Under the pieces are notes generated by a model. It saw only the letters and a program-made list of their open reading frames with translations. It did not search any database and was not told where the DNA came from. The translations under genes were made by a program, and so were the position numbers. 39,521 nucleotides of DNA from a virus: positions 1 through 39,521 of the IMG/VR virus record IMGVR_UViG_3300021090_000062. One strand, given 5' to 3'. Position 1 is the first letter of the stretch. The number at the start of each line of letters is the position of its first letter. Shown here in pieces: positions 4,074-29,457 of the stretch.

Positions 4074-4606
4074 TATTTGCCTTCAAGAATAAAAACTTCT
4101 GTTTCTGGTATGTCATTCAAAACATCTTGAATAGAAACTAACCTACATTCTGTATGATTGAATTGATCTGAAACCCATACGGGATACCGCGCGAATCTAT
4201 TATTTTCAAAAAACCAGTTTTGTAGTTTTTTGAAGGGCATAAGATAGCCTAACGCACTAATTCCATCTGACAATGTTAAACAATAAAACAAGAAATCGCA
4301 TTGACCATAAGCCATCCAACCCGGTCTTTCGTATCCCTTATTCGTGCATGACCAAAATTCCAAGCAGATTTTTTCATACAGATACCCAGGCCAGCGTACT
4401 ATTTTTTCCTCGATAGTTATGATGTTATTTCCCTCTTTTTGCAAGATAGTATCAATGGCCTCTTTTTGAAGTCTCTCAGAGAGTTTTCCTTTATCCATGA
4501 AAACGAATCGACTCTCGTGTCCAAATTTCTGATAAAAGGGTTTTAGCATTTCATCCCTTCTTCTTCTTTGATAGTCATCATCTGTTTTTGCATGACCATG
4601 TATCAT
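4073..4606 (-). CDS. Possible PD-(D/E)XK nuclease-like protein, 177 aa
   Basis: The ATG at 4606 overlaps the methyltransferase stop (ATGA) with GGGGGA 7 bases upstream; a longer start would intrude into that gene. Residues around Asp52 and I-E-E-K at 65-68, followed by Glu83 and a W-x3-Gly-Gln-x-Asp-F segment near 97-105, follow the Asp...Glu-x-Lys order of PD-(D/E)XK nucleases. Its overlap with an adenine methyltransferase is suggestive of a paired role, but whether it cuts DNA is untested and the assignment is tentative. Confidence 0.5.
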   Translation of the reverse strand: MIHGHAKTDDDYQRRRRDEMLKPFYQKFGHESRFVFMDKGKLSERLQKEAIDTILQKEGNNIITIEEKIVRWPGYLYEKICLEFWSCTNKGYERPGWMAYGQCDFLFYCLTLSDGISALGYLMPFKKLQNWFFENNRFARYPVWVSDQFNHTECRLVSIQDVLNDIPETEVFILEGK

Positions 4607-6709: not shown

Positions 6710-6899
6710 GTTTCTCCTCTTGTTTTTCTTGCCATTCTGAATTTAGAAAATATAAACAGCCAACTTTTGAATCGCGCCATTGATAGAACCAAGCAGATAG
6801 ATACTGAGTACTCATCTGTCTTGCATCAATTTCATTAGCTACAAACGCCTGTAATTTTTGGTCGGGTAACTCACGGGGGTTAGTAATGACGGTCATCAT
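6699..6899 (-). CDS. Hypothetical protein, 66 aa
   Basis: The ATG at 6899 overlaps the stop of the J-domain gene and has GGAGG 7 bases upstream. The protein is helical in character, with a Trp/Tyr-rich core (YLSAWFYQW) and a charged Glu/Lys tail. It carries one TACT[C/G]AGTA site (6802-6810), read as Thr-Gln-Tyr. No family recognised. Confidence 0.7.
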   Translation of the reverse strand: MMTVITNPRELPDQKLQAFVANEIDARQMSTQYLSAWFYQWRDSKVGCLYFLNSEWQEKQEEKHEN

Positions 6900-7720
6900 G
6901 CCCACACCTCCTGAAACTTATCCGCGCCCTTCGGCCATGACACAACCAAAATGCGCCCGTTATTATCTCGAATATCTTCCCACGCGAATATCTTAGACAC
7001 TTGAAAAACACCAAGAATTTCTATACCCTCGCACATGATTAAGCCAGAACGAAGAGGACTTCTGTAGCCATCTGCAAGCACGTTATATACACTATTTTTG
7101 CTTGGCGCATTTCGTAAACTCATTTCAAACGCCAAGCCAGCATCATATTTTTCACGGTTCTTGGTCAAAACTTCATATGCATGTTGAATTGCCATAAATT
7201 GATCCTGTGCATTCGCCTCTTTACAGCGATCTGGGTGCCAGATAATTGCCATTCTTCGATAGCCCGTTTTGATTTCTTCATCGGCCGCGTCCCTATGGAT
7301 ACTGAGTACCGAATACAGCGTCGGTTGTTCATCTGGATGCATTGGCGCATCAAACCATTTGCACAGTACAGATTCAAAAAATACAACATTCCAACCATCT
7401 TTGTACCAGCCGTAAGCAGAACGTTCATCACTGCCACGGTCTTTGGTTGTACCAATGTAACGAACGTCAATAATTGCTTGTTTGATTACTGGCTTTGACT
7501 TGGCAACATCTGGCACAAATGGCAACTCGCCAAAATATTTATGACACAAGTTCTGGATTTTCGCCGCCTTACTGGGTGCGACTCGCCATACTCGTTTTGT
7601 TGGGTCATATCGTCTGTCTGATACTGGTACGGATGATTTCAAGTCCGCCACCATGCCGGCGTCATACGGAAAGGATAAAACGAGTTCATTGCCGTCTTGG
7701 ATGATTGAGCATTTAGACAT
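6896..7720 (-). CDS. J-domain protein with HARP-like N-terminal domain
   Basis: 274 residues. The start at 7720 has AAGGA upstream; the frame stays open further up, but only through the GC-rich structured non-coding region. Residues 1-55 resemble the short N-terminal domain of SNF2-type annealing helicases (FPYD...LK..P..RRYDPTKRVWRV). Residues about 134-196 are a J domain with the HPD triad at 162-164. A J domain recruits and activates Hsp70, so the protein may hand phage replication proteins to host DnaK, as lambda P and cellular DnaJ do in other phages. Confidence 0.82.
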   Translation of the reverse strand: MSKCSIIQDGNELVLSFPYDAGMVADLKSSVPVSDRRYDPTKRVWRVAPSKAAKIQNLCHKYFGELPFVPDVAKSKPVIKQAIIDVRYIGTTKDRGSDERSAYGWYKDGWNVVFFESVLCKWFDAPMHPDEQPTLYSVLSIHRDAADEEIKTGYRRMAIIWHPDRCKEANAQDQFMAIQHAYEVLTKNREKYDAGLAFEMSLRNAPSKNSVYNVLADGYRSPLRSGLIMCEGIEILGVFQVSKIFAWEDIRDNNGRILVVSWPKGADKFQEVWA

Positions 7721-7737
7721 AATTTTATTTTCCTTTT

Positions 7738-8425
7738 GAAGGGTTGCCCCGCCGCTCGTGCGCTTGCGCCTATTAGTTGCCGTTGATGCTTGCGCTGGTA
7801 ACGGCCTAAGCCCGATAGTTGAGTGACGCGGCGGGGGGATGGATGTACCCATCCTAGCTATACGGATCAGATGACCCGTAATACTTTGTGTTGCCCCCGC
7901 CCTCTTGCCCGTTGCCCTGATGTTCGGTTTACCCGTTGACCTTGGGACGGTCGGAGGGCGGGGGTATTGCGATAAACGGGCGGCAGGTGGGTGATCTATC
8001 CTGGCAATTGCCCCATCGCAAAGTATCGCTTGCGCGGCGACGCCCATATATCTATGATAAGGTGCTGTCAAGTACTGATAGGGCGGGAGGGTTACACTCC
8101 CTAGGCAGTTATCATCCTGCTTTCATGCGGGCGTTCTCCGTTAGTGTTTTGACCCTTGCCCCAGCGGATAAGACTGGGAGTACGTCATAGCTTCTCGGCT
8201 CAAGTTCCCGCGTTGCGCGTTTATTATGCGCCCCGCCCTGTCAGTACTCGACTGTAAAGGTGCTGTCTGTCCCCTTCGCTCCCGTCCACCTGCATTAGAC
8301 GGGAGCCAGGAGGATGTGTGTCTGCCGCTGTTCTTTCCTTGTCTCGCAAGATGAGACTATCACGGCAGGGAGATTCTAAAACGGGCGCAATTATTCTTGC
8401 ACGGCTCACACGTTGCCCGTAATAT
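7738..8425 (-). ncRNA. Large structured GC-rich non-coding region; candidate ornate phage RNA
   Basis: About 690 bases without a convincing gene, with GC content near 60 percent against roughly 42 percent elsewhere. Perfect stems: 7747-7755 with 7828-7836 (9 bp), 7779-7784 with 7800-7805, 7837-7842 with 7849-7854, 7861-7865 with 7876-7880, 7894-7904 with 7954-7964 (11 bp), 8278-8286 with 8298-8306 (9 bp), 8322-8327 with 8363-8368 enclosing 8341-8345 with 8353-8357, and 8381-8386 with 8415-8420. A long-range helix joins 8067-8087 to 8232-8252 (21 positions, two imperfect). GCGCAAGC occurs three times on the minus strand. Size and setting recall GOLLD and ROOL RNAs, but I cannot assign it to either. 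Confidence 0.65.
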
Positions 8426-8439
8426 TCAGTTACTGAGTA

Positions 8440-9141
8440 TTAAACACGCCGCAGGGTGATCGAAGGCTCGCCCTCTTTGCGCGCGTCTTTCAAAAATGGA
8501 TGGTCAAGTATCCATGCTTCCATCTTGTCTGTGTTCCAAGTGATACGCCCGGACACATAAACCGCGTGAAAGAATTTACCTTTGACTGATTTCTTGCCTG
8601 CTTTGACTTCGGCTTTAATCTCAGCCTCAAGTTTCTTTATGTTCTCTTCCACGTCTTCGGCTTTGCCAGAGAATTCAGCTTCGATTTCAAGTTTGCGTTG
8701 TGCAACCTGTGCGTATACCGCTTTTGTTTTAGCTTCAATTTCTGCTTGCAATCCTCGCTTACGAATATTGATAGAGTCAGTTAAAATGTCATCGTTTGCG
8801 CGTTTCTTTGCATTAATCATGATGCGTTGTTTTTCAATGTCTGAAAATTCGTTCATTAATTTCGTGCGTTGACGGTCAAGATCCGCAAGTTTTGTGGTCA
8901 ATTCATCAGGTATGACAATTTCAGAGAGTTCTTTTTCAATAAGTGCGTCAAAAGTTTTAGCAGTTGTCCGCATTGAATTTTCAATATCTGCCATTGCCTT
9001 TATGCCCTCATTGACAACCGCTTCCACTTCGGCAGGAATTTTTACATCGTCAAGTAACTTACGTTTGTCAATTTCAAGCAAGTCTTTTTGTGCGTGAAAT
9101 TCAGCGAGCGTGTCTAATTTTTGTTCAATGGTTTCGTTCAT
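8440..9141 (-). CDS. Coiled-coil protein of the recombination module
   Basis: 233 residues, almost entirely alpha-helical with long heptad-rich Lys/Glu/Leu stretches (about 1-175). A compact C-terminal end, SVKGKFFHAVYVSGRITWNT followed by PSITLRRV, is typical of phage proteins near single-strand annealing genes (Gp157/Gam-like group). It starts in an ATGA overlap with the RecT-like gene, so the two are probably made together; it may act as a nuclease inhibitor or partner of the annealing protein. The exact family is uncertain. A TACT[C/G]AGTA site directly follows its stop codon. Confidence 0.7.
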   Translation of the reverse strand: MNETIEQKLDTLAEFHAQKDLLEIDKRKLLDDVKIPAEVEAVVNEGIKAMADIENSMRTTAKTFDALIEKELSEIVIPDELTTKLADLDRQRTKLMNEFSDIEKQRIMINAKKRANDDILTDSINIRKRGLQAEIEAKTKAVYAQVAQRKLEIEAEFSGKAEDVEENIKKLEAEIKAEVKAGKKSVKGKFFHAVYVSGRITWNTDKMEAWILDHPFLKDARKEGEPSITLRRV

Positions 9142-9896
9142 GATGCACTCTCCAATTTTGCTTTTACCATTTCAATTTCTTCCGGCGTTTGTGGAATTTT
9201 GCCATCATTGGCAAACATGATTGCATCAGCGGAATACTGAGTAAGCAACTCATTCAACGGATCAAGACTTGGCACTACAACGGGTGTTGCATCAATCACA
9301 TCACCGGCTTCCGTCAAAGATACTCCATACATTTCAGGGGCCTTCATCAATGTTGTCATTCCCGCAGTTACATCAGGAAAGACCACATCAGCGGCAAAGC
9401 CCACCGCACGCCAAAGACACATATTTTCGGGATATTTCATCCATCCCGAATCAGGTTTGACCAATCCCGCACGTGTTGCATCTTCCAATGTGAAACGACC
9501 CGTAAAGCTGTGACCGTTATTTTTACGTTTCATGAAACATTCATAGCCAAGAAAAACGTTTTTGTCAGTTGTGATTTTCTTTATGGAAATTTCATCACAC
9601 AAAGGATTACTCAGTAGTAGGGCTAATGCACCACGCGGGTTTACGGATGGCTTTCCCTGAATCACTTGAACAAAATCAAATGAAGCCGTGATTGAAAAGC
9701 CACAGTCAAAGCCCTTGATCATAATTGCGTAGGCCTGTTCGGGTGATGTCACTCCGAATAAATGTGCCTTGTACATTCGTGGTGACATTTCCCAAATCAT
9801 TTTCTCAACGCCCGGAGTAAGCTCACGGGTTGCGGCGGTTTGAATTGCCAATGCGGTTATTGGTTGTGCGGGTTGTTTGAGTGTTTTAGGTTTCAT
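9138..9896 (-). CDS. RecT-like single-strand annealing protein
   Basis: 252 residues. The block EQAYAIMIKGFDCGFSITAS followed by FDFVQVIQGKPSVNPRGALALL matches the core of phage RecT-type annealing proteins, in which a helix is followed by I-x-G-K-P and an R-G-A-L segment. The protein would coat and anneal single-stranded phage DNA in recombination or replication. It lies between an ERCC4-type nuclease and a coiled-coil protein, all with overlapping starts. It contains two TACT[C/G]AGTA sites in different frames. Confidence 0.75.
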   Translation of the reverse strand: MKPKTLKQPAQPITALAIQTAATRELTPGVEKMIWEMSPRMYKAHLFGVTSPEQAYAIMIKGFDCGFSITASFDFVQVIQGKPSVNPRGALALLLSNPLCDEISIKKITTDKNVFLGYECFMKRKNNGHSFTGRFTLEDATRAGLVKPDSGWMKYPENMCLWRAVGFAADVVFPDVTAGMTTLMKAPEMYGVSLTEAGDVIDATPVVVPSLDPLNELLTQYSADAIMFANDGKIPQTPEEIEMVKAKLESAS

Positions 9897-28412: not shown

Positions 28413-28967
28413 TTATTTAGCAACAACTAGCCCCGCGCCCTGTCTTGCGGCGTCTACTATTTTGTCGCTAAGAACTGATTGATTGTTACCACCGGTAACA
28501 ATTTTAATTTCTTTGCTATCCTCAAACAGGTAATCATTTTCAGATTTGATTTTGGTAAGTTGCTCATTGAAGCGTTCAGCAATAAATTCGCCATTCGCAT
28601 CTTTAAGAGCCTCGCTACTCAGTAGGGCTGATACGGCTTTGGCATTCTTTGCTTTCGCCCCGGTCAACGCGCCTTCGAGCGCATGGTCAAATTTCAATGT
28701 AGCAAGTTGTTTTGCGGATTCAGTAGTAGCAGTTTCCGCTTTCAACTTCCAATCATCGGCAGCTTTTTGAATATCTTCAACTTTCATTCCTTTGAAGGTT
28801 TCAATTTGCTTGTTGGCTTCATCAAGCTGAGTTGCCAGGCTGGATTGATTCGCAGTAAGATCACTAATCTTTGTTTTGTGCGATTCAATATCTTTGCCGT
28901 GTAGCACGACAATTTGATCAGCGATTTCTTCGGTCAAACCAAGTTCTACCAACTGTTTTTTATTCAT
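28413..28967 (-). CDS. Scaffolding protein (Gp20 family)
   Basis: 184 residues from the ATG at 28967. MNKKQLVELGLTEEIADQIV at the N-terminus, a central coiled coil (about 25-65), and a C-terminal part ending DKIVDAARQGAG match the phage minor structural GP20/scaffold family. Scaffolds guide capsid assembly and leave the head before DNA packaging. A promoter and small terminator unit lie just upstream. It contains a TACT[C/G]AGTA site read as Leu-Leu-Ser. Confidence 0.85.
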   Translation of the reverse strand: MNKKQLVELGLTEEIADQIVVLHGKDIESHKTKISDLTANQSSLATQLDEANKQIETFKGMKVEDIQKAADDWKLKAETATTESAKQLATLKFDHALEGALTGAKAKNAKAVSALLSSEALKDANGEFIAERFNEQLTKIKSENDYLFEDSKEIKIVTGGNNQSVLSDKIVDAARQGAGLVVAK

Positions 28968-29068
28968 TACCTGTTTTCCTTTCAATTCATGGTTAGGCTT
29001 TATAAGTGGTTGCCTATCACTTACCGCCCGCGCCTTTAACGTTTCGCGGATAACGATTGTGTATAAAC

Positions 29069-29106
29069 AAAAAAGCCACGCTCACCCATTGCTGGGTAAA
29101 CGTGGC
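29069..29106 (-). terminator. Rho-independent terminator upstream of the scaffold gene
   Basis: Outer stem GCCACG/CGTGGC and inner stem ACCCA/TGGGT, followed on the minus strand by six U. It lies about 100 bases before the scaffold start, so readthrough or antitermination would be needed for upstream transcripts to reach the capsid genes. Confidence 0.8.
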
Positions 29107-29189
29107 CTAAGTCCCGTTCGGTAGTTGCGCCCTACCTAGAGGGTGTGACGCTGTAAACTGTGTCCTTTATCCTAAAGGCTTACGAACAT
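29069..29189 (-). ncRNA. Candidate ~115-nt small RNA or leader with intrinsic terminator
   Basis: Begins just below a good promoter and ends in a U6 run. Minus-strand elements in order: a 6-bp hairpin (29164-29169 with 29173-29178), a 5-bp hairpin (29120-29124 with 29132-29136), a possible closing pair of 29183-29187 with 29116-29120, and a terminator hairpin (29075-29080 with 29101-29106, inner 29084-29088 with 29093-29097). It could be a free small RNA or a leader regulating scaffold and capsid genes by termination. Confidence 0.6.
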
Positions 29190-29190
29190 A

Positions 29191-29219
29191 ATTATACACC
29201 CGTTACGCGGGCTTTTCAA
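29191..29219 (-). promoter_or_regulatory. Sigma70-type promoter upstream of the capsid genes/small RNA
   Basis: On the minus strand TTGAAA (29219-29214) and a consensus TATAAT (29196-29191) are separated by 17 bases. It overlaps the 3' end of the 84-residue gene. Confidence 0.75.
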
Positions 29220-29457
29220 CACTTTTTAATTGTCGTTGACGAATAACCTTTATTTCTTCAATACATTTTAAAACTTGTTTTTCATTTTCCCAATCTGGTT
29301 CATCTATCATAATATACCAATTATCAGGAAAATCAAGCCTAACTTTTCTTTCCATGCCAAAATCATAAAACTGTATTTTTGTTGGTTCATTTATGATTTC
29401 ACGGATTTTCTTAAACCATCTTTGAGTATAAGCATCCCATAAATCATCGTTCAACAT
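29203..29457 (-). CDS. Hypothetical protein, 84 aa
   Basis: ATG at 29457 (a GTG two codons earlier is possible), overlapping the 36-residue gene. Charged, Trp-rich and acidic (KVRLDFPDNWYIMIDEPDWE), with a helical Lys-rich end. It lies in the head region but looks like a small regulatory or accessory protein. No family recognised. Confidence 0.65.
   Translation of the reverse strand: MLNDDLWDAYTQRWFKKIREIINEPTKIQFYDFGMERKVRLDFPDNWYIMIDEPDWENEKQVLKCIEEIKVIRQRQLKSVEKPA

Follow-up and report, generated by a model that had tools for sequence, protein, structure and literature searches.

To date, few large structured RNAs have been described from phages. The best known, GOLLD and ROOL, are cage-forming RNAs that often lie near tRNA islands and have no established function (PMC12286853). 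GOLLD combines one conserved end with a variable remainder (PMC12286853). Group I and group II introns are also documented in phages (PMC12350094, PMC11878797).

The window analyzed here is the whole stretch of phage record IMGVR_UViG_3300021090_000062 (39,521 nt). It contains a long noncoding block on the gene-sense (minus) strand, which begins at the stop codon of a coiled-coil gene and runs to the tail preceding the Shine-Dalgarno sequence of a J-domain gene. The block and its neighbors are as follows:

9138..9896, minus strand: RecT-like annealing protein gene (PHROGs phrog_4171, E 1.6e-6)
8440..9141, minus strand: coiled-coil gene, upstream (84% identical in relative G001)
7738..8439, minus strand: structured noncoding block (z -6.4, no Rfam match, 5' and 3' ends recurring)
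7731..7735, minus strand: Shine-Dalgarno AAGGA of the DnaJ gene (from sequence)
6896..7720, minus strand: J-domain (DnaJ) gene, downstream (Pfam DnaJ, E 8.5e-18)

No family in Pfam or PHROGs was found for the coiled-coil gene (8440..9141). The initial annotation had placed the block at 7738-8425; its start stands, and its end is better set at 8439. The GC excess reported there was reproduced, with values of 0.54-0.56 over 7600-8400 against ~0.38-0.46 in the flanks, and the mean GC content is 55% for the block versus ~42% for its surroundings. The block had also been said to hold no credible gene, and evidence of translation was named among the observations that would refute the proposed reading. 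Codon scores are negative in every block frame, the open frames giving -0.18 to -0.23, compared with +0.18 to +0.31 for twelve genes of the window. A 391-aa ORF listed from 8071 is an artefact, because the DnaJ gene begins at a conserved ATG at 7720. The repeated word mentioned earlier is CGCAAGC, present three times on the minus strand of the block (at 7762, 7788, and 8028); each copy lies within GCGCAAGC, and a GCAA-capped hairpin is possible for each. No promoter or terminator was detected around the block, and neither iterons nor further copies of the element were found elsewhere in the window. Searches of phage and plasmid records gave no DNA match to the block, and the homology seen in the DNA of ten related viral records is confined to its 5' domain.

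Against dinucleotide-preserving shuffles, folding of the minus strand of the block gave z values of -5.7, -5.9, and -6.4 (160 shuffles), and when the minus strand of the whole stretch is divided into 55 non-overlapping 700-nt windows, the block is the most extreme folder. The second-strongest 700-nt window (28701-29401, z -5.0) overlaps a GP20-b RNA and a candidate small RNA. The antisense strand of the block gave z values of -3.7 (20 shuffles) and -5.4 (160 shuffles). Since both strands fold beyond chance, energy alone cannot fix the strand, and the strand preference by folding energy, which is unstable at few shuffles, was left out of the argument. When the first 125 nt were removed, the remainder still gave z values of -6.4 in the sense and -5.3 in the antisense orientation with the same type of shuffle.

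The initial annotation had counted at least ten clean stems; the predicted fold contains 17 helices of at least 4 bp with a pairing probability of at least 0.9. The individual helices that it had listed were recovered as well, namely a 21-position long-range helix (8067-8087/8232-8252, 90% complementary, 144 nt enclosed), a perfect 11-bp helix (7894-7904/7954-7964), and a 9-bp stem (7828-7836/7747-7755). A further 11-bp hairpin lies at 8278-8306. Downstream of the 5' domain, the predicted elements are as follows:

8322..8368, minus strand: S2 stem CUGCCGU/GCGGCAG with an internal hairpin (pairing probability 0.99)
8270..8314, minus strand: 11-bp hairpin with a lower stem below (energy only, without homologue)
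8067..8252, minus strand: multibranched domain closed by a long-range helix of 12+8 bp (probability 0.99-1.0, inverted repeat; energy only, without homologue)
7971..8052, minus strand: weaker domain with closing stem AUGGGCG/CGCCCGU (pairing probability ~0.5)
7894..7964, minus strand: perfect 11-bp stem CCCCCGCCCUC/GAGGGCGGGGG with an inner stem (energy only, without homologue)
7861..7880, minus strand: 8-bp hairpin UACGGGUC/GAUCCGUA (energy only)
7837..7854, minus strand: 6-bp hairpin GGAUGG/CCAUCC (energy only)
7738..7836, minus strand: 3' terminal stem CCCCGCCGC/GCGGCGGGG with tail CAACCC (pairing probability 0.99)

The ~590-nt middle of the block (about 8310-7840) is without homologue in the collections searched, and its individual stems are therefore predicted from folding energy alone. 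The weaker domain at 7971..8052 bears a weak similarity to the element of G001; a score as high was reached in 40 of 10000 shuffles and in 3 of 256 genomic controls. The block was also considered as a tandem array of three short units, but the apparent second unit fails the motif test; the best candidate in the block for a repeated 5' motif and stem has a p value of 0.2 against shuffles.

The region 7500-8700 was scanned on both strands with the Rfam 15 covariance models (cmscan, up to E 5), as the initial annotation had proposed for GOLLD, ROOL, and other large phage RNAs, and no family was matched at E<=5 on either strand. GOLLD and ROOL are thereby rejected as identities of the block at that threshold. 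Group I and group II introns were also rejected, the Rfam models of their catalytic cores being unmatched, as were tRNA, tmRNA, and listed riboswitches, for which neither ARAGORN nor Rfam gave a match. The only Rfam match in the window is GP20-b (RF03003, 28994-29055, 62 nt), and ARAGORN found no tRNA or tmRNA in the window. Directly upstream of the GP20-b RNA is a candidate free-standing small RNA (29064-29190, minus strand, 127 nt, z -4.6) with a near-perfect promoter, TTGAAA-17-TATAAT (29219-29191), and a strong terminator hairpin (29108-29073). This locality is partly conserved, positions 29126-29204 being 83% identical in G001.

Related viral contigs were reached through the proteins of the neighboring genes. 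Eighteen loci with a RecT-like protein were fetched, and comparison of their noncoding gaps revealed similar sequence in L018, L045, and L046. From these three, together with L047, L003, and a weak model match in L059, a consensus for the first ~70 nt of the block was read as (TACTCAGTA-n)-GAATRTNNC-S1-GTTNYAGA. In the window, this region comprises:

8372..8439, minus strand: 5' domain TACTCAGTA-n-tGAATATTA-S1-(two small hairpins)-S1'-GTTTTAGAA (motif and stem recurring in relatives)
8381..8420, minus strand: S1 stem ACGGGC/GCCCGU around the hairpins ACG(UGUGAGC)CGU and GCAA(GAAUAA)UUGC (covariation)

The motif and stem were found in L018, L045, L046, L047, L003, L059, and G001. In the resulting eight-sequence alignment, 97.5% of the S1 cells are paired, with both-side changes in three of five pairs; this count is partly selected, the source search having required pairing. 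The S1 covariation score was reached by none of 500 shuffles. The motif pair search with pairing required returned five perfect matches in the fetched loci, against none in a single shuffled set. When pairing was no longer required, the junction copies still paired at four or five of the five positions, while 20 shuffled replicates yielded 73 matches with a single fully paired one. The window copy scored 22.6 against a profile built without it, a value reached by none of 200 shuffles.

G001 (42.7 kb), the closest relative, is largely collinear with the window by blastn, and its DnaJ is 77% identical. At the block site it carries 279 noncoding nt followed by two small ORFs, and it shares with the block only the first ~78 nt (85% identity over 52 nt). 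Between the two, the inner hairpin and the outer stem differ by one double change apiece, with pairing kept; by inspection, the S2 change is CUGCCGU/GCGGCAG in the window versus CUGACGU/ACGUCAG in G001. A stem of different sequence occupies the S2 position 3' of the motif in G001, L018, L046, L059, and L003 (P<=0.01 each), and the automatic test of this position was not significant for the window, L045, and L047. The search for homologues and covariation proposed in the initial annotation has thus yielded compensatory changes for the 5' domain and no homologues for the middle.

All six close relatives whose contig runs beyond recT (G001, L003, L045, L046, L047, and L018) carry the element, where a close relative is one with a RecT-like protein 62-72% identical; L049, whose contig ends inside recT, was left out. 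In these six, it lies directly after the recT-like gene or the following coiled-coil gene, and in the window, G001, L018, L047, and L003 the 5' domain starts a few bases past the upstream stop codon. The more distant L059 is a positional exception, with the element upstream of an ERCC4-nuclease gene and a terminator-like hairpin between the element and the next gene. The noncoding stretch bearing this element also holds a degenerate tRNA-like sequence (L059, 3560-3730) not called by ARAGORN. The gene downstream of the element varies in nearly every genome, being DnaJ, unrelated small ORFs, a 178-aa ORF, or ERCC4. As delimited by the recurring ends, the element measures ~115 nt in L003, 260-370 nt in G001, L018, L045, L046, and L047, and 702 nt in the window. 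The block had been presented as an isolated ~690-nt unit; it is instead the largest found among the members of a family whose ends recur and whose size varies. Whole-element folding is weak in L046, L047, and G001 (z -0.5 to -1.4). In G001 (locus L002), a 130-nt insert (4276-4405) precedes the conserved domain and itself opens with the TACTCAGTAGATGAATATTG start; it is possibly a diverged duplicate, its similarity to the window copy having a p value of 0.02.

Further members were sought by pattern. Motif scans of IMG/VR gave no additional members; exact-pattern scans of viral contigs with the 5'-region hairpins and the full motif gave G001 as the sole real match, the rest being chance; a scan based on TACTCAGTA returned the known L018 and L047 contigs and otherwise chance matches; and a J-domain alignment scan of GTDB genomes found no close relative.

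Other relatives carry small genes or nothing between recT and DnaJ, which makes this interval a variable accessory spot. In L022, L023, and L024, the DnaJ gene directly follows the recT-like gene, without RNA or accessory gene. L045 (6616-7281) and L047 (6267-6899) encode proteins of a second family, distinct from the first and 79% identical to each other, whose C-terminal part resembles a J-domain; a DnaJ gene of the window type was not found in the part of L047 examined. The gap before ERCC4 in L050 (2720-2780) and L054 (1435-1495) holds a 59-nt structured element, GGGAGTGGGAAGTGAGCCGAGCCGC, 90% identical between them, and the L050 copy adjoins a tRNA-like sequence. The early module of L055 (1392-1775 and 3714-3787) carries a tRNA with the amber-reading CTA anticodon, a tRNA-Thr, and a marginal tmRNA match.

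At the 3' end, relatives repeat one order of features: a terminal stem, GGCAA or GGGCAA, and the ribosome site of the next gene. This order was seen by eye, without statistics, in the window, G001, L003, L018, L046, L047, and L045. Examples, likewise by eye, are GCGGCGGGG-CAACCCTTCAAAAGGA in the window and CTGTGGC-AAGCAATTATTCAAAAGGA in L046. In the window, the terminal stem stops ~15 nt ahead of the Shine-Dalgarno sequence. Two modules recur among the relatives. Module D, GTGCGTYGT-hairpin-ACGTAAACAGTYCANAGGC, lies within S1 in L018 and within the following stem in L045 and L046, and its helix covaries, with both-side changes in three of seven pairs. Module M, GGTGAGAC inside TGCCARCAG/CTGYTGGCA, closes the 3' end in L003, L045, and L047, and is weaker in L046. 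In L050, a different noncoding gap holds a hairpin that looks like the GUGUGAGCC one seen in the window and in G001. These few sequences suggest an RNA scaffold with exchangeable parts, in which internal modules may have been swapped between helices. A conserved 3' end and module swapping in the relatives are partly shown by these comparisons.

The block is noncoding and strongly folded, its 5' domain is conserved with compensatory changes, and its position recurs. Most probably, it is a noncoding RNA of the early operon whose ends are conserved and whose middle changes fast. Read with the early recombination operon (nuclease, RecT-like, coiled-coil, RNA, DnaJ), the RNA would begin, just past the upstream stop codon, with a hairpin domain that is conserved throughout the phage group, and would end with the terminal stem and GGCAA tail right before the next ribosome site, whose conservation across the group is partly shown. 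Between these ends, the RNA would be replaced, duplicated, or enlarged phage by phage, reaching ~700 nt in the phage of the window. It may then be released from the operon transcript by cutting or termination and may act autonomously in trans, its changeable middle facing a changeable partner such as host defence or machinery. This fuller account, an operon-encoded RNA with conserved ends that is cut out or terminated and bears a changeable trans-acting middle, is advanced tentatively, at a little under an even chance. A more specific version, a cassette-like phage RNA with fixed ends and a swappable interior that here would form a trans-acting particle of GOLLD/ROOL size, perhaps against host defence, is considered rather unlikely.

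The gene behind the element differs in nearly every genome, and therefore no single regulated gene goes with it. This counts against a long structured cis leader, in which the RNA would be kept in the mRNA and control the translation or stability of the next gene, here DnaJ. Such a leader would suit the short distance from the terminal stem to the Shine-Dalgarno sequence, the order of stem, GGCAA, and ribosome site in several relatives, and the lack of any terminator found between the block and the DnaJ gene. However, conservation is best at the end most distant from that gene, the 5' end, which is anchored to the stop codon upstream, and a cis-regulator of 700 nt would be a long one; overall, a leader seems somewhat improbable. 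That same anchoring keeps alive the reading of a 3'-UTR element controlling the upstream recT-like or coiled-coil gene, e.g., as a stabilising stem or retroregulator. The sib element of phage lambda is a retroregulator. A retroregulator precedent is also mentioned in PMC2864571. The conserved domain lies within a few bases of the stop codon in the five genomes named above, and five relatives have a RecT-like gene upstream of it. Yet the coiled-coil gene stands between recT and the element in the window and G001, another gene precedes it in L059, and the 700-nt body would be left unexplained, so that control of the upstream gene is judged quite improbable.

The folding of both strands beyond chance, the variable accessory spot between recT and DnaJ, and the palindromic TACTCAGTA could also reflect a DNA-level element, i.e., a hairpin-rich recombination or replication site whose RNA folding is a by-product. 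This is very unlikely, given that iterons and repeated copies are absent from the rest of the window, that the conserved unpaired motifs are strand-specific, and that the few imperfect pairs in the conserved helices are, by inspection of a small number, mostly G-U on the gene-sense strand. The 5' domain might alternatively be a real small RNA joined to an unrelated 590-nt middle of foreign or decaying DNA (e.g., an old insertion) whose folding would follow from its GC content. The middle indeed lacks homologues, and at this site the close relative G001 instead carries a short element plus a pair of small genes. The folding of this part alone, however, reaches z -6.4 against dinucleotide-preserving shuffles of the same composition, and the 3' end of the window resembles by eye those of the relatives, so that an unrelated middle is likewise judged quite improbable. 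If the preferred reading of an early-operon RNA with conserved ends is true, the minimal form of ~115 nt and the giant form of ~700 nt, at one early-operon site of related phages, would make it possible to ask which part works and what the extra domains contribute. As a way for RNAs to evolve, module swapping among the helices of a single scaffold would be notable.

The RNA family with the GAATRTNNC-S1-GTTNYAGA 5' domain appears to be unlisted in Rfam 15. In the literature searched, no paper describing the family was found, and an unpublished or subscription-journal account is possible. The initial annotation had expected a new class if the block were neither GOLLD nor ROOL; its absence from Rfam and its homologues with a compensated 5' domain agree with this, but only the ends have homologues. 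Among other large Rfam bacterial RNAs, the raiA motif, OLE, and HEARO are, like the block, large and noncoding with many helices, but none was matched at E<=5, and no associated transposase or membrane-protein gene was seen. Phage introns are likewise ornate RNAs in phage operons; the block instead lies between genes and not within one. The GP20-b RNA is also a phage structured RNA, but it is 62 nt long and lies elsewhere in the window. ROOL is similar in size class, phage context, and density of structure, and differs in that no tRNA island is present in the window and that the family of the block spans ~115 to 700 nt. GOLLD lies often near tRNA genes, of which the window has none, though some relatives have tRNAs in the same early module; the block sits after recT-like or coiled-coil genes. 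The conserved region of GOLLD is at its 3' side, whereas the best-supported conserved domain of the block is at its 5' end. Of the resemblance to GOLLD and ROOL initially proposed, size, density, and phage context stand, and membership does not; the block resembles them in kind only. With GOLLD it shares, beyond a large, dense, phage-borne fold, the combination of one conserved end and a variable remainder (PMC12286853).
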